This document shows positions 7,507 through 28,876 of a stretch of DNA of 34,161 nt, piece after piece. Position 1 is the stretch's first letter. Each line of letters begins with the position of its first letter. This DNA is from a virus, in the IMG/VR virus record IMGVR_UViG_3300017951_000054, positions 1 to 34,161 of that record; one strand, 5' to 3'. Made by a program: the position numbers and the translations under genes. Under the pieces are notes generated by a model, which did not search any database, was not told the origin of the DNA, and saw only the letters and a program-made list of their open reading frames with translations.

Positions 7507-7749
7507 ATGGCAACACCTAACAAGAAAGAGAAGAAGGATCTCAAGAAGATCATTAAAGAGCGAACCGGTTCTTCCGATAAGAAGTCCAAGGCTGGCAGCA
7601 CCACCGCTGCTTCAAAGATGAAGTCCAAGATGATGGGCAAGTCTGCGGACAAGGCTGGCAAGAAGGTCGCCAAGAAGGTCGCCAAGAAGGTGGCGCGGAA
7701 GGTGGCTAAGAAGGTGGCTAAGAAGGTCGCCAAGAAGAAGGGTTACTAA
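7507..7749 (+). CDS. lysine/alanine-repeat, histone H1-like basic protein
   Basis: An 80-residue protein with at least 32 lysines. From about residue 51 it consists of back-to-back KKVA repeats (seven, one with Arg), like the C-terminal tails of bacterial histone H1-like and HU-fusion proteins that condense DNA. It probably binds nucleic acid, perhaps packaged DNA or the host nucleoid. The repeat is also visible as a direct repeat in the DNA (7668-7740), so its copy number may vary between relatives. It lies in the late unit with other basic proteins. Confidence 0.75.
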   Translation: MATPNKKEKKDLKKIIKERTGSSDKKSKAGSTTAASKMKSKMMGKSADKAGKKVAKKVAKKVARKVAKKVAKKVAKKKGY

Positions 7750-10245: not shown

Positions 10246-10603
10246 CTACTATAACCTTAGTGTTCCACGCCGCAGGGCCACACCCTGCTAGCGCACCCAC
10301 CACGAGGGTGGCTCTTCGCGCAGTGCGATTGGGCATTGCGTATGCAATACCCCCTATGATTAAACTTGCTCCTATCTTTACTCCGACTAAAGCTGCTTTG
10401 TTTTCTGGCACCGTGGGGTTAGCTTCGGTGTGCCCATCGTCAAGTGCTACCCAAGTCGTAGCCGTGTCTGCTGCTTGGCAGGCAACCATGACCGCGGCTA
10501 GTGCTTTGTCAGTGCGATCCCACTGCGACCTGCTCGTTGAGCAGGCCACAGTGGAAGTCGCTAGAATCAGGCTACCTATTAGTAAACTTCGTGTACTTAG
10601 CAT
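10238..10603 (-). CDS. predicted lipoprotein with membrane segments
   Basis: A 121-residue protein with a type II signal: Arg near the start, a hydrophobic stretch, then the lipobox TVAC with Cys at residue 21. The rest contains two further hydrophobic segments (GVKIGASLIIGGIAYAM and ARRATLVVGALAGCG) and an ATTWVALDDGHTEANP segment that recalls small bacterial membrane proteins of the DUF5658 kind. It overlaps the helicase gene by 32 bases. A role in the host envelope, such as superinfection exclusion, is possible but not shown. Confidence 0.65.
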   Translation of the reverse strand: MLSTRSLLIGSLILATSTVACSTSRSQWDRTDKALAAVMVACQAADTATTWVALDDGHTEANPTVPENKAALVGVKIGASLIIGGIAYAMPNRTARRATLVVGALAGCGPAAWNTKVIVDE

Positions 10604-11918
10604 TCCATCCTACTTCTGCAACCCCAGTAGCACCGTTGCGTTGCTTGGCTATCAATAGCTCGGCAACGCCCGGTGATAATGTCTGAGGATTGTACACCTC
10701 ATCACGGTAGATGAGTATTACTACGTCAGCATCCTGTTCTATCTGGCCGGAATCCCTGAGGTCCGCCATGCATGGACGCTTGTCCACACGGGCCTCCACG
10801 GACCTATTAAGCTGAGACAGAGCTATCACAGGAACATGAAGCTCCTTCGCAAGTGACTTGAGAGATCGGGAGATGTTAGCTATCTCCTGCTCACGACTCT
10901 GCTCTGATCCGGCACCCCGCATAAGCTGTAGGTAATCTACGATAATCAGGTCCAAGCCATTACGAGATGACCTAGCCATTCTCCGAGCCTTAGCCCGCAG
11001 TTCAGTTGCGCTGATGGAAGGAGTATCGTCAATAAATATCTCAGCCTCCCCTATCATGCCACTGCCCATCGCAATCCTACGTTTGTCGTCGGGTGTGCAC
11101 CTACCCGCACGGAGATCGTACATATCTATCTCTGCCTTAGAGCAGAGCATTCTCTGCACGAGCTGCTCCTTGCCCATCTCAAGGGAGAATATGCCTACTG
11201 AATGACTAGAAGCCTCAGTTAAGCTACGAGGAACCGATATATTCTCGGCCATGTTAAGGACAAGGGCAGTCTTCCCCATGCTGGGTCGTGCTGCCACAAT
11301 GATGAGATCACCTCTTTGAAACCCTGCCGTCAAACAATCAAGCGAATCGAAACCGCTCTCTAGTCCAGTCACTGCCGATGGATTCTCTAGAATTTCATCT
11401 AGTCTTTCGACAGCGGGTACCACTAGCGAGTCGATCTTACTGAAGCAAACGTCTTGCTTCCGACCACCGATCTCAAACAGGGCGGACTCTGCTCTGTCGA
11501 GCAGAACGGAAGGGGGTTCGCTCGTGGAATAAAGCTGATCTGTCACCTCAGCTACGCGCTGTATGGCCCTACGCAACAGGGCTTTCTCACGCACAATGTC
11601 GGCATAACGCTCGACGTTGGCCGTGGTTACAGCACGCTCCATTTGCTCAGCTAGTCCGCTGATACCCCCAACTTTCTCCAAGTCGCCACTCATCTTGAGG
11701 CGTTCAGAGACAGTTACAATATCGACAGGCTCAGACAGTCCTGCTAGATCTGATACTGCTCTGAATACTACTGCGTTCTTCTCGTAATAGAAGTCCGAGT
11801 ATGACACCTGCCCCGCAATGCGCTCAAAGCAATCGGGGTCTAGGAAGCATCCACCGATGATGGACTCTTCCGCCTCCAACGAATGAGGCGGCACCTTCAG
11901 TTGAATGCCGTCTTCCAT
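10572..11918 (-). CDS. dnaB: replicative DNA helicase DnaB
   Basis: A 448-residue DnaB-family helicase, a full normal length. The N-terminal domain (residues 8-130) is present. The RecA-like core has Walker A ARPSMGKT (210-217), the SLEMGKEQL segment, Walker B LIIVDYLQLM (325-334), the arginine-rich SREQEIANISRSLK motif, and the LSQLNRSVE and DLRDSGQIEQDADVV motifs. It should unwind DNA ahead of the fork in place of, or together with, the host helicase. AAGGAG lies upstream of the ATG, which follows the stop of a small membrane gene without a gap. Confidence 0.97.
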   Translation of the reverse strand: MEDGIQLKVPPHSLEAEESIIGGCFLDPDCFERIAGQVSYSDFYYEKNAVVFRAVSDLAGLSEPVDIVTVSERLKMSGDLEKVGGISGLAEQMERAVTTANVERYADIVREKALLRRAIQRVAEVTDQLYSTSEPPSVLLDRAESALFEIGGRKQDVCFSKIDSLVVPAVERLDEILENPSAVTGLESGFDSLDCLTAGFQRGDLIIVAARPSMGKTALVLNMAENISVPRSLTEASSHSVGIFSLEMGKEQLVQRMLCSKAEIDMYDLRAGRCTPDDKRRIAMGSGMIGEAEIFIDDTPSISATELRAKARRMARSSRNGLDLIIVDYLQLMRGAGSEQSREQEIANISRSLKSLAKELHVPVIALSQLNRSVEARVDKRPCMADLRDSGQIEQDADVVILIYRDEVYNPQTLSPGVAELLIAKQRNGATGVAEVGWNAKYTKFTNR

Positions 11919-13272: not shown

Positions 13273-14128
13273 ACTGTTCACACACAGTTCGCGCAGGACA
13301 TGGGAAGCTGTCACATCTAACTAGCTCTCCCGGCCTGACTTGGATCTCCATTTGAGTTTGGTTTGCTGTACGCTCAATGAAATCTTGAGCCTCCTCCATC
13401 GAAGAGCATAGCTTAGTAGCTCTGCTTGCTCCGACTTTTGTTACCGCATACACGGTAGGCTTTCTCTTTATCTCTTCGTCGGTGCACAGAGGCAGTACCT
13501 CCCTTGCTTTGACGTGTTCACGGACCCTTCTCTTTATGAAAGATTCGGTAAGGTGCAAGTCCCACTTATTAAATGGGATTGTTACCACGCCAGTAGGCGG
13601 GAAGTCCTTGTTGCGTCTAGCGGCAGCAGCCGACCAGTCCAGTATGAATGACACCACCTGTAAGTCATTGATTTTACAGGAGTTTTTATCTGCTAGCCAC
13701 GCATACATATTGAGTTGCTGTTCCCATTCCAGGAAATCTTGATTAACTATCTTCCATACTTTGCACGTTTTCCAGTCAGTGATGACGCCATTTTCAATTA
13801 GATCTGGCGTACCAGCAATCGTGTACTCAGTGCCATCGACTTCGACTTTTGCTGACAGCGGCTTCTCTACTTGGGAAGTAGTACCGCACGTAACAAGAGC
13901 CGCTCGTTGCATGAGATTATGGAACGCTGATCCATACAGGGCGTTCCGTTTGTCATGCGCGTCCTCTTCTAGCGAAGAGTCGAACGTCTTAATTAGTGCC
14001 GCTACTCGTGCGGGCTGCAACAGCTCGGTAACTCCGAAGTCTCTCTCGACTGGGACATAATCAAGAGCAGTCATTTCGATTGCTTTCTTGAATACTTTAT
14101 GAAGCCCCAGCTTATTAGTGAGTTTCAC
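13244..14128 (-). CDS. RecB/Cas4-like PD-(D/E)XK exonuclease
   Basis: A 294-residue nuclease. The motifs are H70 in YGSAFHNLM, D109 in AGTPDL, D118-x-K120 in ITDWKT, and Q138 with Y142 in QQLNMYAWL, the order seen in RecB-type nuclease domains. At the C-terminus C272, C277 and C283 (CDSFPCPARTVC) resemble the three-cysteine end of Cas4/AddB iron-sulphur nucleases; an upstream partner could be C81. It probably trims DNA ends in recombination or replication together with the SSB. The start is GTG at 14128, four bases overlapping the upstream stop (GTGA), with GGAGG about ten bases before. Confidence 0.85.
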   Translation of the reverse strand: MKLTNKLGLHKVFKKAIEMTALDYVPVERDFGVTELLQPARVAALIKTFDSSLEEDAHDKRNALYGSAFHNLMQRAALVTCGTTSQVEKPLSAKVEVDGTEYTIAGTPDLIENGVITDWKTCKVWKIVNQDFLEWEQQLNMYAWLADKNSCKINDLQVVSFILDWSAAAARRNKDFPPTGVVTIPFNKWDLHLTESFIKRRVREHVKAREVLPLCTDEEIKRKPTVYAVTKVGASRATKLCSSMEEAQDFIERTANQTQMEIQVRPGELVRCDSFPCPARTVCEQYASYKRTEE

Positions 14129-17175: not shown

Positions 17176-18795
17176 TTAGGCGGTGTCTACAGAGATCTTG
17201 ACCAGTGTTTCCGCTGCTGCCTCTAGCTCTGCTGCTTCAGGCTTGAGGTAGTAACGGAAGTTTGCAGTATCCCAGCGCACACCGGGGTGTGCCGTGGCAT
17301 ACCATGATCCCTTCTCTGAATGCTCCAGCGAAACGTACTTCTTGCCGTAACGCAGGCAGGCTTCGCACACCTGTAGTTTTGTGCCGTCGGCACCAATGAC
17401 ATGATCGCAGAGTGCGTCACAGGGGACGCCGATTCCGCATTCTTCGCACGCACTGTAGTCTTCTGCGCAGTATCTACAGACATCCTGACTACAGTGACCC
17501 CCACTGGAGCGGGGTGCCTCTCGACCCGAGCCGAAGTAGCTGATGCTACCGTTAGCACTGGCACGCTCCGACTTGTATTTTTCTTCGTCGCATATGATGC
17601 AACCGAAAAATCTGTCACGGTAGCAGTGGTAACAGTAGTAATCGCCATCGACTACGAGCGGTGCTTCTGGACTTGAGCTATACGGCTCGTAGTTCCAGTA
17701 AGCAGTATCACCGCACGATGTGCACTGGTAAGTGCGACGAGCAGCACCATCGGTGCCACGGGCATGGAAAGTGACAGGATCGTCAACGCATTCAGCGTTG
17801 CACTTCTCGTCGGGACCGCAGATCACAAGCCAGCCGTCCTCTTCCTTGACGTATTCAGCTACGTCAAGGTATGGGGCCAGAACCATGACGGCACCCTCGT
17901 CGCTGTCGCGCAGTACGTGGTGGGTTAGCTTACCACCAGCGAAACTACGCTCCGGGTCGGAGGCGTTCCATCGTCGGTAGCCGTCTTTTTCGAGCACCGC
18001 GGCCATACGGTATTGATCTCCGTAGATCTTGCCGTAAACCTGGTTGTCGGTACGGACGACTGTTCGGGCCACGAGCCTGCTGCCACGATACAGCGCAGCC
18101 ACCGCCATGTTGGGCGAATTGGCGTACGCCCAGACCGGGTGTGAATCGTCATCCAGACAGTATACGTACTCGCCGCGTTCATGACTCATGCACGCGCCGA
18201 ATCCCATCTCCTCTGAATGAAGGTACATCTCCTCGATCTCATGGGCATCGGTCAACAGTTCGATACGGCAGCCGTGAAGCGTGATCTGCGCGGCGATGCA
18301 GTCTTGGTCAGATTCGGAAATCTCATCCAAGTCAGCATCCTGACACACCTTGTGAAGGTAGCGACCGAGCCGACTGTTAGTCTCCGCGTCCATGCGACAC
18401 TTCTCAAGATCATTGAAGTAATGAACATGAGCCGTGCCGTCAGCACCATGAGTAACGTCTACCCAAGGGCATGACCACTCAGGGATTCTTGCAGCCAGTT
18501 CGGGACATCGCTCCCGCAACAAGTCCATGATGTACAGCCGAGTCTGCGCACCGTGCTTCTTGAAGTGCTGGATTCGCTTGCGCTCACGCTCTCGCCATGA
18601 CTCGTCGCCTTCTGGGAAGAAGGGCTGTCTGTAGTACTCGTTTTCAGAGTCGCTACTGTTGAGTGATGCTGCAAGATCGCTGGCAATCCAGGCGTCTTCA
18701 GTCAGAAACACGGACGGTTCGTCGGGCGGTACATAGTCCCGCACTGTGTACGGATGCACAATCTGCCTTACCTTGATACAGTATTGATATTGCAT
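17176..18795 (-). CDS. large multi-zinc-finger protein, unknown function
   Basis: A 539-residue protein. Residues about 195-300 hold a domain with CMSH, HPVWAYANSPNMAVAALY and LVARTVVR motifs, which I recall from uncharacterised phage proteins. Residues about 350-490 contain many cysteine pairs (CTSCG, CYHCY, CIICDE, CRYCAE, CEECG, CEACL), with several treble-clef or LIM-like zinc fingers likely. No catalytic site was recognised. Its role may be binding a host complex. AGGAGG precedes the ATG. It is the first gene downstream of the series of hairpin-separated small genes and shares the high GC of that region. Confidence 0.75.
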   Translation of the reverse strand: MQYQYCIKVRQIVHPYTVRDYVPPDEPSVFLTEDAWIASDLAASLNSSDSENEYYRQPFFPEGDESWRERERKRIQHFKKHGAQTRLYIMDLLRERCPELAARIPEWSCPWVDVTHGADGTAHVHYFNDLEKCRMDAETNSRLGRYLHKVCQDADLDEISESDQDCIAAQITLHGCRIELLTDAHEIEEMYLHSEEMGFGACMSHERGEYVYCLDDDSHPVWAYANSPNMAVAALYRGSRLVARTVVRTDNQVYGKIYGDQYRMAAVLEKDGYRRWNASDPERSFAGGKLTHHVLRDSDEGAVMVLAPYLDVAEYVKEEDGWLVICGPDEKCNAECVDDPVTFHARGTDGAARRTYQCTSCGDTAYWNYEPYSSSPEAPLVVDGDYYCYHCYRDRFFGCIICDEEKYKSERASANGSISYFGSGREAPRSSGGHCSQDVCRYCAEDYSACEECGIGVPCDALCDHVIGADGTKLQVCEACLRYGKKYVSLEHSEKGSWYATAHPGVRWDTANFRYYLKPEAAELEAAAETLVKISVDTA

Positions 18796-18799
18796 TTCC

Positions 18800-18906
18800 C
18801 TTCCTCCTGTTATGCCGCTAGCCCAATGCCAGCAGCGAGATCAGAAAATCTGAGACAGGAGAGCAGCCCTGCCGGTGCTTGCACCGACAGGGGGCGACAG
18901 TTGGTT
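18800..18906 (-). repeat. two-hairpin intercistronic RNA repeat, copy A
   Basis: Lies between the 120-residue gene and the zinc-finger gene. Read leftward it forms hairpin 1 (18867-18892, 12 pairs, one G-U) and hairpin 2 (18814-18836, nine positions, one G-U, one mismatch, loop ATTGG). This is the most diverged copy. Confidence 0.75.
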
Positions 18907-18909
18907 GCA

Positions 18910-19272
18910 TCACGAGATGTCGAAAGGCACGCCTGCGCAGTGATGACCGTTTTCCGAATCCCACTCGACCAAGTGGTATTCTCCGGTCTTTGCGTTGACC
19001 AGCCATTCGTGGTCGTTGAAGATGACCCTGTAATATCCTGCGGGCAAGAACGCCGAGGAAATCCGAGTGGCTTCGCCATCTTTCAGACGCCAGTGGTTTG
19101 GACCCAACTGCTCCAGAAAGATGTTGATTTTGACATCGTAGATGCCATCTCCAGACGAGTTTTCGGGCTCCGACAGAGTGCACTCACTCCAGCTATGGAC
19201 GTAAGTGTTGTTCTGATTCAGGAGTTCGAAAACTCTCCCGACACAATCAGTGACCTTTTTCTTATTTGTCAT
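18910..19272 (-). CDS. hypothetical protein
   Basis: A 120-residue protein started at the ATG at 19272, which follows the same leader (GACAGGGGAAAGCAGA) as the next upstream gene; a longer frame to 19290 would enter the hairpin element. The sequence is mixed alpha/beta, with GYYRVIFNDHEWLVNAKTGE near the end. No family recognised. It is flanked by two copies of the hairpin repeat. Confidence 0.65.
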   Translation of the reverse strand: MTNKKKVTDCVGRVFELLNQNNTYVHSWSECTLSEPENSSGDGIYDVKINIFLEQLGPNHWRLKDGEATRISSAFLPAGYYRVIFNDHEWLVNAKTGEYHLVEWDSENGHHCAGVPFDIS

Positions 19273-19274
19273 TC

Positions 19275-19389
19275 TGCTTTCCCCTGTCAATGCGCACTGC
19301 CCAACGCAGTCCGCGAGCCTCAGGAAATCAAGAGACAGGAGAGCAGCCCTGCCGGTGCTCGCACCGACAGGGGGAGACGGTTGGTTGCG
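19275..19389 (-). repeat. two-hairpin intercistronic RNA repeat, copy B
   Basis: Lies between the 67- and 120-residue genes. Hairpin 1 is at 19347-19372 (12 pairs, loop GA). Hairpin 2 is at 19292-19314 with loop GTTGG. The fifth stem pair is A-T here where copies C and D have G-C, a compensatory change. Confidence 0.8.
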
Positions 19390-19593
19390 TTACGCATCAT
19401 CAATGTGTGATTGCGTCCCTAATCCCGCGCAATGCTTAGCGGGCAGGAGGGAGACGTGGTTGGATTCTTTGGAGTATATGTTCATTACATACTCGACCGA
19501 GCAGTAATGTCCAACCATGTTGTTGACAGCCAACTGCTGATAATGGTTGATGCACCTGTAATACCCTTTGGGCATTTCCGTTACTTTGTCCAT
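19390..19593 (-). CDS. small hypothetical protein
   Basis: A 67-residue protein rich in Tyr, Asn, His and Cys (GYYRCINHYQQLAVNN, then CSVEYVMNIYSK). It shares with the 120-residue product a short GYYR segment, which may show distant duplication of the gene together with its leader. The leader GACAGGGGAAAGCAGA precedes the ATG. No family recognised. Confidence 0.6.
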   Translation of the reverse strand: MDKVTEMPKGYYRCINHYQQLAVNNMVGHYCSVEYVMNIYSKESNHVSLLPAKHCAGLGTQSHIDDA

Positions 19594-19599
19594 TCTGCT

Positions 19600-19712
19600 T
19601 TCCCCTGTCAGTGCGCGCCGCCCAGTGCGGCACGCGAGCCTCGAAAAGTTAGGCGACGGGGAGCAGCCCTGCCGGTGCTTGCACCGACAGGGGGCGACAT
19701 GGCATCAGGCGA
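19600..19712 (-). repeat. two-hairpin intercistronic RNA repeat, copy C
   Basis: Lies between the 60- and 67-residue genes. Hairpin 1 is at 19667-19692, identical in its stem to copy A. Hairpin 2 is at 19613-19635 with loop ACTGG. The seventh stem pair is C-G on the plus strand where copies B and D have T-A, again compensatory. Confidence 0.8.
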
Positions 19713-19895
19713 TCACCGGATGTGAACCAGTGGCACTGAATCGAGCGCGGAGCCGAAGGCCGCGATTGCTCGCGGTGCGTAGCCGCGTGTAACTTGCTGA
19801 CTCTGGAGCAATGCCCCAATGACCGCCAGCCATATGAGCACGCGGATACAGTTAGCCATCCACGCCTTGGCGTTTCGCATGAGATTGTCGAACAT
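19713..19895 (-). CDS. small membrane protein
   Basis: A 60-residue protein started at the ATG at 19895 behind GGGAGGAAG. An amphipathic, basic N-terminus (NLMRNAKAWMANC) leads into a hydrophobic helix (IRVLIWLAVIGALLQ) at residues 17-31, followed by a more polar end. Probably one membrane span. It is the first protein gene downstream of the tRNA. No family recognised. Confidence 0.6.
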   Translation of the reverse strand: MFDNLMRNAKAWMANCIRVLIWLAVIGALLQSQQVTRGYAPRAIAAFGSALDSVPLVHIR

Positions 19896-19899
19896 ACTG

Positions 19900-19948
19900 C
19901 TTCCTCCCGTCAATGCGCGCTGCCCAATGCAGCACGCGAGCCTCAAGG
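19900..19948 (-). repeat. hairpin 2 of the intercistronic repeat, copy D, joined to tRNA
   Basis: Only hairpin 2 is present (19915-19937, loop ATTGG, nine pairs with one G-U) with the conserved GAGGCTCGC flank. The tRNA 3' end takes the place of hairpin 1. Confidence 0.7.
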
Positions 19949-20025
19949 TGGTGCCCCGGACTGGATTCAAACCAGTGTCTCTGGCCTGAGAGGGCCAGCG
20001 TCCTAGGTCGCTAGACGACCGGGGC
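19949..20025 (-). tRNA. tRNA-Glu (CTC)-like gene with one extra anticodon-arm base
   Basis: Read leftward, a seven-pair acceptor stem GCCCCGG / CCGGGGC is followed by A73 and an encoded CCA. The D arm is GTCT-AGCGACCTA-GGAC, the T arm ACTGG-TTTGAAT-CCAGT, and the variable loop AGAC. The order matches bacterial tRNA-Glu closely. The anticodon arm is CTGGCC-CTCTCA-GGCCAG, one base longer than normal: either a six-pair stem with a six-base loop or a five-pair stem with an eight-base loop. T33-CTC-A37 reads as Glu CTC. The D loop has GA where GG is usual. It may be functional, degenerate, or a processing signal. Confidence 0.8.
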
Positions 20026-20473
20026 AGACGGGACGGTTCGACGCGGACCCATCTTAGAGCGGGGACCGCGCCGCCGTCCTCAGGACAGCGGGCAGCACTG
20101 GAGGGTCGCTCCAGCCGCTACCGCTGCCCTTAGGAGGCAACAGGGAAAGGAATAATCCCGTGACTACGAGCACATACCCTTTGAAGGGGGAACGCGGGGA
20201 TACCGCTAAATCAAATACCCTCTCTAGGTTATATTCGGCTTAGGCGCATATGCGCTGCGTCTGCATTGTCGCTTCACACCATACGGTGTCCCCTTCAGTC
20301 CAGAGGCGTGTACGCCATACCGCAGAGGCGGCTGGTTCCTACCCACCTACGCACAATTACGTAGATTGTGGGTGTGTACACGGACGGGCAATAGCATCAC
20401 TCATGCCTAACGAGTATGAGCAAGGATGTACAAGCGAGTCCATTTGTGAGCACGGGAAGGGGTGAAGCCGAGG
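20026..20473 (-). ncRNA. structured non-coding stretch upstream of the tRNA
   Basis: No convincing gene lies in these 448 bases. Read leftward it folds strongly. At 20090-20129 an outer seven-pair stem GGGCAGC / GCTGCCC encloses a six-pair stem CTGGAG / CTCCAG. At 20031-20079 a long arm pairs GGACGG with CCGTCC and GCGCGG with CCGCGT, then CCC with GGG. One pair is G-U on the minus strand but A-C on the plus strand, which favours leftward transcription. Further features are the palindrome GCGCATATGCGC (20244-20255), a bulged hairpin at 20344-20374, and one arm of a 30-base inverted repeat (20427-20456). A structured leader or small RNA is inferred. Confidence 0.45.
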
Positions 20474-20489
20474 GTAGCCTAGGGGCTAC
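20474..20489 (-). terminator. short hairpin at the end of the 112-residue gene
   Basis: GTAGCC-TAGG-GGCTAC, a perfect six-pair stem that includes the stop codon of the leftward gene. No T run follows, so it may be an mRNA end or attenuation signal and not a full terminator. Confidence 0.35.
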
Positions 20490-20824
20490 TTACGGCGAAT
20501 CGTTACCCTTGCAGACGGACGCATTCGTGCCTTGCGATTGACCTCATTATTCAGCATGAAGCCACCCATAAGACCCGTACCCGTCTGTCCCAGAACAGGC
20601 TCAGCCTGTTTTGGCGCAGTCTCACGAATCGGACGCGAGCGTTTGCGTGTGCGGACCGGTTTGATTGTCCACCCTTGAGCCTGCGCGTCCCGCTGGTAGG
20701 TTCGAACGGACACGGTGCAGCCGCACCATGAGCATTGACGAACCCTATCCAGATAGGCGCATTTCGGCCCAACAGAGCGAAACAAGGTTACAAACTTGTG
20801 CCTACAGATACCATTTGATGCCAT
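20486..20824 (-). CDS. basic cysteine-containing protein, unknown function
   Basis: A 112-residue protein from the ATG at 20824, which has AGGAG seven bases upstream. The frame is open back to 20974 but without a good start signal. The N-terminal part has cysteines and a histidine that could bind zinc (CRHK, CAYLDRVRQCSWCGC), followed by a basic linker (KPVRTRKRSRPIRE) and a basic tail. This suggests a DNA- or RNA-binding regulator. It is the first gene of the leftward unit, the usual place for an early regulator. No family recognised. Confidence 0.6.
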   Translation of the reverse strand: MASNGICRHKFVTLFRSVGPKCAYLDRVRQCSWCGCTVSVRTYQRDAQAQGWTIKPVRTRKRSRPIRETAPKQAEPVLGQTGTGLMGGFMLNNEVNRKARMRPSARVTIRRK

Positions 20825-21073
20825 GTGGATACTCCTACGTCCAAGCGAAGTTGGACATTTGTACTCCCCATGCCCACAAATGGACACGCTTGTACACCAC
20901 GACGTTTTCCCGCGTACAGTTGCACACCCGTAGCTCGGCCGTAGCCTGCTAGCTAGATGGCGCAGCGGGGACATAGCCCCAGAGCGCGGTACGGTCGGAA
21001 TCGTCGCCGTCGCCCCAGACGTTGCAGGCTGCGTGCCAAGCCTGTAAGTACCTGAAATCGTTACTCAAGTGTA

Positions 21074-21131
21074 AATAGAACACGTTCTATTGTACACAAT
21101 TGTGAACAATTTTGTTCGGAAGTGTGCACTT
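21074..21131. promoter_or_regulatory. cluster of four palindromes at the divergence point
   Basis: In order: AATAGAAC-AC-GTTCTATT (21074-21091, perfect arms), TTGTACACAATTGTGAACAA (21090-21109, one mismatch pair), GAACAA-TT-TTGTTC (21104-21117, perfect) and AAGTG-TG-CACTT (21120-21131). They overlap or abut. A fifth, AACGCG-TTG-CGCGTT, lies nearby. The site is between the leftward early unit and the rightward late unit, so it probably holds operators, or an origin. Confidence 0.6.
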
Positions 21132-21228
21132 TCGCCCCTACTTTCGCCTTTCCCCTTTCCCCGTAAGATGAACGCGTTGCGCGTTACCTTATATGGCGCA
21201 GGATGGGTCAAGGGTAAAAGGGGTTGTT

Positions 21229-21258
21229 TTGCACTTGACGTTCCTCTCGCGTTATAAT
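21229..21258 (+). promoter_or_regulatory. rightward promoter candidate
   Basis: TTGCAC and a perfect TATAAT (21253-21258) are 18 bases apart. A TTGACG also lies 12 bases before the -10, too close for the usual sigma-70 spacing. It would transcribe towards the terminase operon. Confidence 0.5.
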
Positions 21259-21679
21259 GATGGGTGTCAAGGGAAAACTAGATATAGTGTGGGGTGGCAG
21301 CCCTAGACCACTAGATTTTGTGGTTGCAGCAGGCAGAGGAGACGTGATAAAATGGACACGGGGCAATCCCCCCCCCGAGGGTTCCAAATGTATTATATAT
21401 ATCGGACCCATACGGGAGATCCCCCGCAAAAAGACTATGAATTTATGACATAGTGCGCCGTATATCACGTAGTGGCGCTCGCAGACTCGCGCCGTATACA
21501 TAACCCCTTTCAATAAAAAACAAAAAACGGTAAAAAAAGAAATATAAATAGCATATTTTCAGACAAAATACAATACCTAAATCCAAGTTTTTAATCTTTT
21601 TTGTACGGACATGGCAAAAATGTGCATTATATTAACAATATCAATAACTTACCGCGCTGCGGTAGAGGGAGAATAGACT
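21259..21679. other. AT-rich gap before the packaging operon
   Basis: An open frame of about 53-63 codons (up to 21448) has no clear start signal and is doubtful. GATGGGTGTCAAGGGAAAA (21259-21277) repeats GATGGGTCAAGGGTAAAA (21202-21219). GCGCCGTATA occurs twice near 21450 and 21500. From 21510 to 21650 the DNA is very A+T rich. TACCGC-GCT-GCGGTA (21650-21664) forms a hairpin just before the ribosome binding site of the next gene. Confidence 0.4.
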
Positions 21680-21904
21680 ATGCCTATGCTATTTATGGCG
21701 GTTGTCACCTATATTGTCCTGGAATTGTTTGGAGGTAACACCCGAACAGTAGCTTCCTGGGAGGTAAAGGGTAAAGATAAACCCAAGAAGGCCAAGAAGA
21801 AGGCCAAAGACGCAGTTCTCGGCGCCCCCCGCGTAGATTTGCGGACCAAAGAGGGGCGAATGCTTAAAGCAAAGCAGGCGCGACTTCGTGGAAAACGAAA
21901 GTAA
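21680..21904 (+). CDS. small membrane-anchored basic protein
   Basis: A 74-residue protein with AGGGAGAA before the ATG. Residues 2-18 (PMLFMAVVTYIVLELFG) form one membrane helix; the rest is strongly basic (KDKPKKAKKKAKDA and a KAKQARLRGKRK end). It could tether DNA or the terminase to the membrane, but no family was recognised. It is the first gene of the packaging operon and overlaps the TerL start by 17 bases. Confidence 0.6.
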   Translation: MPMLFMAVVTYIVLELFGGNTRTVASWEVKGKDKPKKAKKKAKDAVLGAPRVDLRTKEGRMLKAKQARLRGKRK

Positions 21905-23393
21905 AATACGAGAAGAGCTTCAGGAGGCTAAACACCTCCTGTCTGCCCTTGAAAGAATAAAGAAGGAGCGGGCTCGCAGGAAGAAAGAGGAATCTATTCG
22001 TTATTTTGAGCCCCACCCTAAACAGGAGGAGTTCCTTTTCGACAAGAGCCAGACGCGAGTCGTATTCGGAGGGAACAGAAGTGGGAAAACTCATGTGTCT
22101 ATGGCGGAAGTTGTGGCGCACGCGCTCGGATACAGACCGTGGCTCTCGGAGGAAGATGAAAATTATAGGGTGGAAGTGCAAACACCTTCAAAGGGGGTCA
22201 TCGTCGGAGAGTCTTTTGGCACCGCGATTAAGGATATACTGGTACCAAAGCTCCTCGGGAACCCAGATCAAGGTGTGCCTGGATTGTTACCTAAGACTGC
22301 GATCGAGGGGAAGCCTAGAAGAAATGCCCAAGGCATTATCACTGAGATCAGACTAACAAACGGATCTCGCTTGGTGTTTATGTCCTACGACCAATCAGTA
22401 GATTTGTTTGAGGGCGGTGACTGGGACTATGTTGCTTTTGATGAGCCGCCCCCTAGGGCAATCTTTATTGCGTTGCAACGTGGATTGACTGACCGTGGGG
22501 GTAGATGCTGGATTGCGTGCACGCCACTCAAAGAGCCGTGGCTGTATGACGATCTTGTTTGCAGAGACGACATACCTTGCTATACGTTTGATCTTGCGGA
22601 TAATCCGCATATCAGTCAGGAGGCAAAGGATCAGTGGGCTAGGAATCTAACGGACGAAGAAAAGAAGGTCAGGCTGCATGGACAGCCTCTTCAGCTTGAA
22701 GGACTTATTTACAATGGCTACGCAAGAAAATCAAATTCATTTAGGATTGCTCGCCATAAGATACCTTCACATTGGCCTTTGTGGTGCTCTATTGATCCTC
22801 ACCCTAGAACTAAGCACGTTGCTGTATGGGGTACTATACGGCCAGATGGAGTTATGCTTATTGTCGGAGAAGTTCAAAACACGGACTCAGAAAACAGGGT
22901 CCAGCCATTCTGTGACGCGATTCTGTCTTTCGAGCGGGACGTACTTGAATGCGACCCCGAAAGAATCGAAGGAAACCGACTTATTGACCCCAGTGCATCA
23001 ACGGCTGTAGATGGAATTAGCTTGCTGGATAGATTTAATGATTACGAAATATATGCCAGACCTGGGTCCAAGCAACTAATGCACGCTATTAACATTACTA
23101 AAGATATGCTGCACTCGGACCCGGAAATGGGCATAGCCCCAAGGCTTATGTTTTTTGACGACCTGAAAGGATTGCACCATGAGCTAATGAGATACTCGTG
23201 GCAGGAATGGGCAGGCAGGACAAAGGACGAGCGGAACCCCAGGTCTAAGCCTAGGGACAAAGACGATCACTTTATTGAAGCAATGCACAGAATTATTTTG
23301 GACAACCCACAGTATGAGCCGGTGAGCTTTGGAGAGATACTAGAAGAACAGAGATACTACACCCCAGTTGATACTGAGGGCAGAGGATACTAA
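21888..23393 (+). CDS. terL: terminase large subunit
   Basis: A 501-residue packaging motor. The ATPase has Walker A GGNRSGKT (61-68) and Walker B YVAFDEPP with D185 and E186. The nuclease domain starts at SIDPHPR (D303) and has further acidic residues in LIDPSAS and DDHFIEA. It should pump DNA into the prohead and cut the concatemer. The start is GTG at 21888, the only in-frame start before the ATPase, and overlaps the previous gene. The N-terminal 40 residues are a charged helix that may contact TerS. The stop overlaps the portal start (TAATG). Confidence 0.97.
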   Translation: MENESKIREELQEAKHLLSALERIKKERARRKKEESIRYFEPHPKQEEFLFDKSQTRVVFGGNRSGKTHVSMAEVVAHALGYRPWLSEEDENYRVEVQTPSKGVIVGESFGTAIKDILVPKLLGNPDQGVPGLLPKTAIEGKPRRNAQGIITEIRLTNGSRLVFMSYDQSVDLFEGGDWDYVAFDEPPPRAIFIALQRGLTDRGGRCWIACTPLKEPWLYDDLVCRDDIPCYTFDLADNPHISQEAKDQWARNLTDEEKKVRLHGQPLQLEGLIYNGYARKSNSFRIARHKIPSHWPLWCSIDPHPRTKHVAVWGTIRPDGVMLIVGEVQNTDSENRVQPFCDAILSFERDVLECDPERIEGNRLIDPSASTAVDGISLLDRFNDYEIYARPGSKQLMHAINITKDMLHSDPEMGIAPRLMFFDDLKGLHHELMRYSWQEWAGRTKDERNPRSKPRDKDDHFIEAMHRIILDNPQYEPVSFGEILEEQRYYTPVDTEGRGY

Positions 23394-25396
23394 TGGCAGA
23401 CGTAACATCACACAACGTAAACCGGGCTTCTGAATTGAAGTCCACAGACGAAGAAGCGTACAAAGATTTAGCGTTACAGATTACAAACTGGTATAAGGCT
23501 GATCGAGACGCTCGACTCGAATGGGATGAAAAACTAGATGAATACTACAAGCTCAGTATTTGTGAGCCACTTGATCGGACCCCAGCGATTGAAGGAGGTG
23601 CAAATGTTTGTACCCCCATCGTTGCGTCCGCTGTACTTTCGTTCTCTGCTAGGGCGTATTCCTCCATCGTCACCACTCCAGACTCTAAAGTTGTCAAAAT
23701 TGAACCAGTAGAAAAGAATGACGTTAAGAATGCTCGGATCGTAGAGCATTTTATGAACTGGCAGATTTCATCGGAGATGGAAGAGTGGGAAGAGGGATTT
23801 GACAAAAGCCTGCATGAACTCGCTACGTTTGGAACGGTTTGGCGTAAGGTTACATGGCTTAAGGATGAGCAAAGACCTCGCGTAGTCAATGTGCCTACAG
23901 TAGATGTTTTTGTTCCCTATGGATGTTCCTGCATTGAGAAGTCCCCTCGTATTACTCAGCGACTCAGAATGAATCTGGACGACATTCTAGAGAATCCTGA
24001 TTATCAGAATAATAAAGACTTGAAGCCCGCTGGAATGTTTTTGGAAGAAGAAGATACCAGCATTGTTACAGAGACTTCCGATGAGCTTTCAGGCGATAAC
24101 CCGCCGATGTATCAGGACGAAAGCGTTGATCGTAACACTGTTCTTGAGGCCCATGTTCTTATGAAGATTCCCGAGTTTGGTGATACCAAGCGGGAGCCAT
24201 ACACTATTACAGTTGACGTACCTAATCAGGAAATCCTGAGGTTGGTTAGCAGAAAGGGGCCAAATGGAAAGACGATACACCACTGGATTGATTACCACTT
24301 TATTCCAAATTCGCAGGGCTTTTATTCGTTTGGTTATGGAGCATTTCTCCATCAGCTCAATAATATCCAAAACACAATCTACAATCTTGCTATTGATTCT
24401 GGTAGACTCTCTAACACACCTTTTATCCTTTATGGTCGAGGAGCTGGCCTCAAGGGGCGTAACCTTCAGCTACGTCCGGGGGTTGGCCTCCAGGTTAGCG
24501 ACGTTAATGAAGTCAGAGAAATAAAGCTCCCTGGCTTGGACAATTCGATTATTGCGCTAATGCAGCAGACGGAAAAGTTTGGTCAGGATATTTCCTCCAA
24601 TGCCGAAGAGCTGCAGGGCAGAGGACAGAAGGGCATCAGGGAGCCCACGGCTTCAGGTACGCAGATGCGAATTGAGCAGGGATTGACTCAGTTCTCTGTT
24701 CTGACTAAGCGCGTTCTTCGTTCTCTTAAGCGAGAGCTTCGCCTGCTGTTTGAATTTAACGCCATGTTCCTTACCAATGAAAAAACATTTCGCGTTGTTG
24801 GCCGAACAGATGCAACGGCTTTTGATTTCCAAAAGCTGTCGCCTGACAACCTTAACGGCAAGTATGATATTAAACCTACGGGCGATCCAGCGTTTGCAAG
24901 TCCGATAGAGCGTAAGAACGAAGCTCTTACAATTATGAACACCATGCTGCAAAACCCGTTGGTGGTTGGAATGCAGGGTATGCTTCCGCCTAACTTTGCT
25001 GCAATGAGAAAGGGGCTTGAAAACTTCCTCGTAGAGTTTGAGCGTAGCGATATTATTAATTCTCTGCCCAGTGCGCCGGAGCCTTCCCTTCCCCCGGAAG
25101 AGGAACTTCAGCTTCTGATTGAAGGGGAAGAGGTAATGCCCAAGCGAGGCGAAGATCACGTAATGCATCTTTCCAGGCACGTTGCTTTTGTCAGAACGGA
25201 AGATTTTGCAAGGCTTGATGCGGAACAGAAGATGAGGATTCAGAATCACATCATTATGACTGAAGCCTTGGCTGAGCAGGAAACCGAAGAGCTTATTAGA
25301 CTTCAGAATGCACAGGCTATGTTTATAGCCAATAACCAAATTACAGGAGGAGGAAATGGAGGTTCCCAGCAAGGGGGCGGTTCAGGAATGGCTTGA
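23393..25396 (+). CDS. portal protein
   Basis: A 667-residue protein directly after TerL, with the size and plan of podovirus portal proteins (P22 type). Recognisable parts are IEGGANVCTPIVASAVLSFS near residue 65, a DNIQNTIYNLAIDSG-like helix near 330, and a long helical end with ADAEQKMRIQNHIIMTEAL. It should form the dodecameric ring through which DNA enters the head. The start overlaps the terminase stop by one base. The last 30 residues are Asn, Gly and Gln rich, and the next gene begins inside them. Confidence 0.9.
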   Translation: MADVTSHNVNRASELKSTDEEAYKDLALQITNWYKADRDARLEWDEKLDEYYKLSICEPLDRTPAIEGGANVCTPIVASAVLSFSARAYSSIVTTPDSKVVKIEPVEKNDVKNARIVEHFMNWQISSEMEEWEEGFDKSLHELATFGTVWRKVTWLKDEQRPRVVNVPTVDVFVPYGCSCIEKSPRITQRLRMNLDDILENPDYQNNKDLKPAGMFLEEEDTSIVTETSDELSGDNPPMYQDESVDRNTVLEAHVLMKIPEFGDTKREPYTITVDVPNQEILRLVSRKGPNGKTIHHWIDYHFIPNSQGFYSFGYGAFLHQLNNIQNTIYNLAIDSGRLSNTPFILYGRGAGLKGRNLQLRPGVGLQVSDVNEVREIKLPGLDNSIIALMQQTEKFGQDISSNAEELQGRGQKGIREPTASGTQMRIEQGLTQFSVLTKRVLRSLKRELRLLFEFNAMFLTNEKTFRVVGRTDATAFDFQKLSPDNLNGKYDIKPTGDPAFASPIERKNEALTIMNTMLQNPLVVGMQGMLPPNFAAMRKGLENFLVEFERSDIINSLPSAPEPSLPPEEELQLLIEGEEVMPKRGEDHVMHLSRHVAFVRTEDFARLDAEQKMRIQNHIIMTEALAEQETEELIRLQNAQAMFIANNQITGGGNGGSQQGGGSGMA

Positions 25397-27985: not shown

Positions 27986-28876
27986 ATGGCTACTTTTAGT
28001 GCAAATCAGCCGTATCTCGTAACAGATGGATTGCGGCGAGTTCTTTTTAATGAGCTGTCTCGTTTCAACGAGCAGTACACGACCTACCTCCGAGTCGAAA
28101 ATTCGACGAAGAGCGATGAGACGTATGCCCGCGTGGGTACGTTCGGTCTGGTTTCGGAGCGTCTTGAGGGCGATCCGGTTTCTTACGATGATCCCCCTTC
28201 GGGATTTGATGTGACGATTACGCCGCGTGAGTTCGCAAAGGGCTTCCGCGTCAGCCGCATCATCCGAGAGGACGATCAGTACAACATCATCCCGCAGCTT
28301 CCGAGTGGGCTTGCTAGCTCGCTGAAGGAGACGGTTGAGACGGATGCGTCAAACATCCTGAACAACGGCTTCACCGGTGGTTTCGTGGGTGGTGACGGTC
28401 AGCAGCTTTTCTCGACGGCTCACCCGCTGCCGGGTGGAGGCACCGCCTCTAACCGTCCGAGTGTTGACTCCGACCTGTCGGAGACTTCGCTGGAGCAGGC
28501 TGACATTGATATTGCTAGCTGGGTTGACGACCGGGGCAAGAAGGTCAATATGCGACCGACGACCCTGATCGTTCCGAAGGAGCTTGACTGGACGGCCAAG
28601 CGTATCCTGAAGACGGAGCGTGACCCGGATTCGGCAAACAACACCATCAACGCTGCGTACGGCTACCTGCAGCAGAACGTGGTTAATTACCTGACGGACC
28701 CGGATGCGTGGTTCGTGCAGTGTGACCGCCACTACCTGCTGTTCAACTGGCGTCGTACCCCGGACTTCGATACGGACAACGATTTCGATACCGATAACAT
28801 GAAGGCCAAGCTCACCGCACGGTGGGGAACGGGCTTCGAGGATTGGTACGGAATGTACGCTTCGCCGGGCGCGTAA
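27986..28876 (+). CDS. major capsid protein (HK97 fold, Mu gpT-like)
   Basis: A 296-residue protein, a normal length for compact HK97-fold capsid proteins. The sequence FSTAHPLPGGGTASNRPSVD, the later TTLIVPKELDWTAKRIL and the VVNYLTDPDAWFVQC segment are of the kind seen in Mu gpT-like major head proteins. A six-residue repeat FDTDND-FDTDN lies near the C-terminus (about 258-268). GGAG precedes the ATG. Codon use is more G+C biased than in the neighbouring genes, as expected for the most expressed gene. Hairpins flank the gene cluster on both sides. Confidence 0.9.
   Translation: MATFSANQPYLVTDGLRRVLFNELSRFNEQYTTYLRVENSTKSDETYARVGTFGLVSERLEGDPVSYDDPPSGFDVTITPREFAKGFRVSRIIREDDQYNIIPQLPSGLASSLKETVETDASNILNNGFTGGFVGGDGQQLFSTAHPLPGGGTASNRPSVDSDLSETSLEQADIDIASWVDDRGKKVNMRPTTLIVPKELDWTAKRILKTERDPDSANNTINAAYGYLQQNVVNYLTDPDAWFVQCDRHYLLFNWRRTPDFDTDNDFDTDNMKAKLTARWGTGFEDWYGMYASPGA

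Follow-up and report, generated by a model that had tools for sequence, protein, structure and literature searches.

The window analysed here, a stretch of 34,161 bases, is the whole of an IMG/VR virus record, which may itself be a fragment. It derives from a tailed phage, with genes for the terminase large subunit (21888-23393), the portal (23393-25396), the major head protein (27986-28876) and a DnaB-type helicase (10572-11918). The rightward strand carries the structural genes. Leftward genes form a block beginning at about 20 kb. A tRNA-like gene comes first, followed by three small open reading frames (ORFs), a 539-aa ORF and a peptidase-like gene, and the far end holds the replicative helicase gene and two small ORFs. 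Judging by their position in this block, the small leftward genes are probably early phage genes. Near its beginning lie four copies of an intergenic element, named A to D from the lowest coordinates upward, among the following genes:

17176-18795, minus strand: 539-aa ORF with no family, following element A
18910-19272, minus strand: gene 3, 120 aa counted from ATG, paralogue of gene 2
19390-19593, minus strand: gene 2, 67 aa, paralogue of gene 3
19713-19895, minus strand: gene 1, 60 aa with a hydrophobic stretch, no family
19949-20025, minus strand: tRNA-like gene of Glu-like type, CUC region, with an abnormal anticodon loop, adjoining element D on its 5' side

The tRNA-like gene resembles tRNA-Glu, but ARAGORN could not assign its anticodon. 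Its anticodon arm, CUGGC-CCUCUCAG-GCCAG, has an 8-nt loop or, with an extra pair, a 6-nt loop, a size as in frameshift-suppressor tRNAs, and its discriminator base is A; a search for exact matches to the tRNA pattern, made to infer the host, returned none. Upstream of it, a 33-nt inverted repeat with 88% complementarity (20427-20459 / 20864-20896) surrounds the region of a small leftward ORF (20486-20974) and may delimit a small mobile unit or act as regulatory sites. Elsewhere, a perfect 20-bp inverted repeat (69-88 / 13803-13822) with a separation of 13.7 kb is either a contig-end artefact or real, and a small rightward ORF (7615-7737) contains lysine-rich tandem repeats of 12 nt each. The long gene-poor stretch ahead of the terminase block (21000-21680), with its AT-rich runs and repeated GGGGAAAGG-like motifs, is a candidate divergent promoter or origin region.

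The minus strand bears the intergenic element in three almost identical copies, A (18.80-18.90 kb), B (19.27-19.38 kb) and C (19.59-19.70 kb), as well as in a partial fourth copy, D, which consists of the element's second half and directly follows the tRNA-like gene. A previous sequence-only reading had described the same element in the three gaps between leftward genes, and our analysis confirms this description. Each full copy contains two hairpins:

18867-18892, minus strand: element A hairpin 1, from sequence and fold
19347-19372, minus strand: element B hairpin 1, from fold and 5' arm search
19667-19692, minus strand: element C hairpin 1, from fold and 5' arm search
18814-18836, minus strand: element A hairpin 2, from fold and covariation
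19292-19314, minus strand: element B hairpin 2, from fold and covariation
19613-19635, minus strand: element C hairpin 2, from fold and covariation
19915-19937, minus strand: element D hairpin 2, from fold, covariation and covariance model

Hairpin 1, with the arms CCCTGTCGGTGC / GCACCGGCAGGG and a 2-nt centre (AA or GA), is the same in A, B and C except for one loop base, and its 5' arm has exactly three exact matches in the window, all of them at A-C. The stem reported earlier is present at these three sites, but when folded it comprises 11 pairs closed by a 4-nt loop rather than 12 pairs around the 2-nt centre. It is GC-rich and stable, lies 16-19 nt past each stop codon and is followed by the sequence CUGCUCUCCUGU; the U-tract that would follow the GC-rich stem of an intrinsic terminator is absent at this point, and a terminator scan made no call there. 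Compared with dinucleotide shuffles, the elements fold with z-scores of -4.39 (A), -3.45 (B) and -4.47 (C).

Hairpin 2 is conserved by structure. As described previously, it is a nine-position stem with the loop NNTGG, and the changes noted at pairs 5 and 7 proved right as stated; in copy B, pair 4 is a G x G mismatch. Inclusion of copy A adds pairs 3, 4 and 6, which are also altered on both sides, so that both-sided changes affect five of the nine pairs (seven cells), with pairing kept in 35 of the 36 cells across the four copies (pair 3, GC/UG; pair 4, UG/GC; pair 5, GC/AU/CG; pair 6, CG/UA; pair 7, UA/CG/GU). Shuffles yielded a mean of 1.9 such pairs and reached the observed count in 3 of 500 cases, and the covariation exceeded shuffles in all measures and all slid registers, although it reflects a small number of independent events in four related copies. 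The leftward strand of A-C folds better than the other strand by 8-11 kcal/mol. Together with the wobble pairs, this difference assigns the structure to the leftward RNA and not to the DNA, as the sequence-only reading had proposed. Its notion of a modular structured RNA is thus supported by covariation, strand asymmetry and repetition.

A third helix, P1, was overlooked in that reading. It forms between the strand that connects the two hairpins, CUGCUCUCCUGUC, and the leader, GACAGGGGAAAGCAG, which carries the Shine-Dalgarno sequence (SD) and provides the 3' strand of the helix. The leader had been reported as shared by B and C, and GACAGGGGAAAGCAGA-ATG is indeed exact in both, whereas it is altered in A and D. 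The strands concerned are:

18854-18866, minus strand: element A anti-SD strand of P1, CTGCTCTCCTGTC, from fold
18803-18810, minus strand: element A SD strand of P1, ACAGGAGG, before the ATG of the 539-aa ORF
19334-19346, minus strand: element B anti-SD strand of P1, CTGCTCTCCTGTC
19274-19288, minus strand: element B SD strand of P1, GACAGGGGAAAGCAG, from fold and duplex
19655-19666, minus strand: element C anti-SD strand of P1, CTGCTCCCCGTC
19595-19609, minus strand: element C SD strand of P1, GACAGGGGAAAGCAG, from fold and duplex
19897-19911, minus strand: element D leader with SD, GACGGGAGGAAGCAG
20027-20033, minus strand: element D possible P1 strand, TCCCGTC, immediately 5' of the tRNA, from predicted fold

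In the predicted folds of A, B and C, hairpin 1 is followed by a three-way junction composed of P1, a small variable stem and hairpin 2, and P1 with the paired SD is found in both the minimum-energy and the centroid structure. Element A retains eight contiguous P1 pairs despite its altered leader, and the helix of element C is bulged, unlike that of the neighbouring copies. B and D are set apart by a P1 pair that is changed on both strands, U-A to C-G, with C representing a hybrid of both types. In D, UCCCGUC directly 5' of the tRNA could pair with GACGGGA in the leader, which would place the tRNA inside the junction of the predicted fold; this pairing is suggestive only. On its own, the P1 duplex of B (p 0.016) and of C (p 0.0185) is better than dinucleotide shuffles, but that of A (p 0.42) or of D (p 0.19) is not, so P1 is less certain than hairpin 2. 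Consistent with burial of the SD, the mean unpaired probability at positions -16 to -4 is 0.16-0.32 in A-C, as compared with 0.38-0.71 at eight of the nine other leftward ATG/GTG starts; the exception, the helicase start, is also predicted to be paired (0.16).

Genes 2 and 3 are diverged paralogues (18 of 52 residues identical, about 35% amino acid identity, E 1e-6 for the pair), and the downstream flanks of A and B share 92% identity over 63 nt, indicating that tandem duplication of gene and element together accounts for at least part of the module's spread. Hairpin 1 stayed fixed while the adjacent paralogues diverged to this extent, which suggests that selection or gene conversion acted on the RNA.

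All evidence on the element comes from four copies in one genome. A covariance model built from A-C recovered D (37 bits, E 1.4e-7) and detected no fifth, full-length copy in the window. No copies were found among the matches listed from Rfam, phage, IMG/VR and genome collections; as these collections also hold no near relative of the phage, this outcome of the refuting check named with the sequence-only reading is uninformative rather than refuting. Among the Rfam 15 families, only tRNA exceeded the gathering cut-off, with no family for the element. A blastn search with 3.5 kb of the locus yielded no homologues in the phage collection, where the best match of the terminase reaches 26%. In IMG/VR, the 539-aa protein and the portal retrieved no relatives, the terminase retrieved one (24%) and the major head protein 12 contigs (30-39%), in which neither the element nor, at E 1e-3, any of the window's leftward genes was found. 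IMG/VR searches with DNA patterns (hairpin 1, hairpin 2-leader and leader-ATG) gave no matches or chance matches in unrelated sequence; the hairpin 1 tail was absent from 84,980 bacterial and archaeal genomes, and the element was absent from the plasmids searched.

The earlier statement that no named phage element has this form was too strong, because start-associated sequences (SAS/ESAS) with upstream inverted repeats have been published, albeit with different sequences (PMC3203893, PMC7302621). In Cluster K mycobacteriophages, 11-19 genes carry the SAS, a conserved repeat of 13 bp, at their SD; about half of the copies are preceded by an imperfect inverted repeat, and a role in translation initiation was proposed but left unexplained (PMC3203893). 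A similar motif pair exists in Cluster EF Microbacterium phages (PMC7302621), whose motif we compared by eye only. Like SAS/ESAS, the leaders and hairpins 2 of our four copies are short repeats, with an inverted repeat upstream, at the SD of small non-structural genes, and they are conserved unusually well beyond the SD itself. However, SAS/ESAS occur in 10-19 copies per genome rather than four, and neither a third helix nor an invariant hairpin 1 has been described for them. Their 13-bp motif, GGGATAGGAGCCC (or GGGAAAGGACCCC), is not found at the SDs studied here, and the Cluster K motif, with up to three mismatches allowed, has four matches in the window (7.7 expected by chance), none of them at the leaders. 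SAS/ESAS is the nearest published kind, with which the element shares its place without being a member by sequence, and it may work in the same way. In local folds of the TM4 SAS sites, the SD is mostly unpaired in most cases (0.27-0.69) and not consistently buried. At one TM4 ESAS site, at about 17600-17690, the inverted repeat and the SAS are likewise preceded by a GC-rich hairpin, CCCTGAGCCC...GGCTCGGGG, an order that matches that of hairpin 1, hairpin 2 and leader.

Repeated intergenic stem-loop cassettes among small early genes are also typical of the T4-type PeSL, mobile promoter/stem-loop units that spread by recombination and carry an early promoter, whereas no sigma-70-like site was recognised inside A-C, although the promoter type of the host may differ. 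Inverted repeats of 18 bp in Cluster EG (Hyperion) and 17 bp in Cluster O (Corndog) likewise lie in short gaps between small genes, those of Cluster EG 14-22 bp ahead of the starts, but unlike the element they are near-perfect DNA dyads with conserved arms, with neither compensatory changes nor an SD helix described (PMC7302621, PMC4351075).

The module, which precedes three or four small genes in a row, appears to hide the ribosome-binding site of each gene and is probably a reusable translation control unit of a kind akin to elements of other phages. The best-supported reading, to which we give roughly even credence, makes it a repeated cis-acting structured mRNA leader that limits translation initiation. 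Hairpin 1 would close the 3' end of the upstream cistron in each intergenic gap, and the three-way junction would keep the SD of the next gene inside P1, thereby lowering translation initiation by default. P1 could then be opened, for instance by a protein bound to hairpin 2 or its NNUGG loop, by processing or by ribosome density, and its opening would set the expression of the entire gene set jointly. What we infer beyond the repeats, their strand, the covarying hairpin 2, the predicted SD pairing in A-C and the spread partly by duplication is that translation is repressed, that a signal opens P1 and that the genes are expressed early. The SD leader is the one part common to the positions before every start, and because this conserved leader is predicted to be paired in A-C, the anatomy favours translation initiation at least as strongly as cistron processing. 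The parallel with SAS/ESAS, which also lie directly before start codons, may be counted for translation control (PMC3203893). Weighing against it, some pairing of the SD is expected anyway, since pyrimidine-rich spacers pair with purine-rich SDs.

The main rival is cistron processing, also raised in the sequence-only reading, in which a host nuclease of the RNase III type would cut P1 or hairpin 2, separate the cistrons, remove the anti-SD strand and free the SD, leaving hairpin 1 as a 3' stabiliser. We consider this explanation unlikely but worth serious attention. An element lies between every consecutive pair of small genes, with hairpin 1 at the end of the upstream cistron and hairpin 2 plus leader at the beginning of the next. 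In T7, RNase III cuts the early mRNAs between cistrons, and its early-region sites are likewise hairpins between consecutive early cistrons, a likeness judged by description only. In D, the tRNA replaces hairpin 1 and the anti-SD strand, and tRNA 5' and 3' maturation would cut at the same place; the predicted fold pairs the leader with UCCCGUC at the 5' edge of the tRNA, so that maturation would free the SD. However, with its 11 bp, hairpin 1 is short for RNase III, and the P1 of D is not significant on its own. The two mechanisms may be combined, because a cut between the P1 strands would free the SD. A specific form of such a combination, with three-way-junction RNA switches that bury each SD and are opened by RNA processing, the first copy using the tRNA as its junction arm so that tRNA maturation licenses downstream translation, seems improbable to us.

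A similarly low likelihood attaches to the idea that hairpin 1 terminates transcription or partially attenuates it, with hairpin 2 and the leader forming an ordinary 5' UTR. The distance from the stop codons is usual for terminators and the stem is stable and GC-rich, but termination is made less likely by the missing U-tract and the negative scan. Moreover, A-C contain no promoter-like site, the single weak match, close to D (19913-19884), extends into gene 1, promoter-like matches are as numerous as expected from shuffles, and the conserved P1 and covarying hairpin 2 would be left unexplained. An attenuator in which the hairpin 1 3' arm pairs with the anti-SD strand was rejected, as P1 stays in the minimum-energy fold with the hairpin 1 5' arm blocked, and the position of the stop codons also counts against it; duplex energies also failed to single out long-range pairing between each anti-SD strand and the SD belonging to its own upstream gene. 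It is distinctly improbable that the repeats lack an RNA function and are passive products of recent tandem duplication or a recombination cassette, each copying event having carried the flanks along with a gene unit of about 300-480 bp. The paralogy of genes 2 and 3, the matching flanks of A and B, and the anti-SD type, which tracks the unit rather than the junction, fit this idea, but the compensatory changes in hairpin 2 and the invariance of hairpin 1 beside strongly diverged proteins are unexpected without selection, and the idea is already disfavoured. An antiterminator that modifies RNA polymerase is hardly credible. The put RNA of HK022, a segment of early phage RNA that measures about 70 nt and forms two stem-loops (PMC9378689), resembles the two adjacent hairpins in an apparently early operon. 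However, put occurs once per operon, downstream of a promoter and not associated with starts, antitermination needs no copy per gene, and the covariance model of the element, in a one-way comparison, found no match in HK022.

Several phage groups are known to carry start-associated repeats combined with inverted repeats, yet the function of these repeats has stayed unexplained. The compensatory changes and the predicted SD-burying helix described here allow a concrete, testable RNA mechanism to be proposed for such elements.
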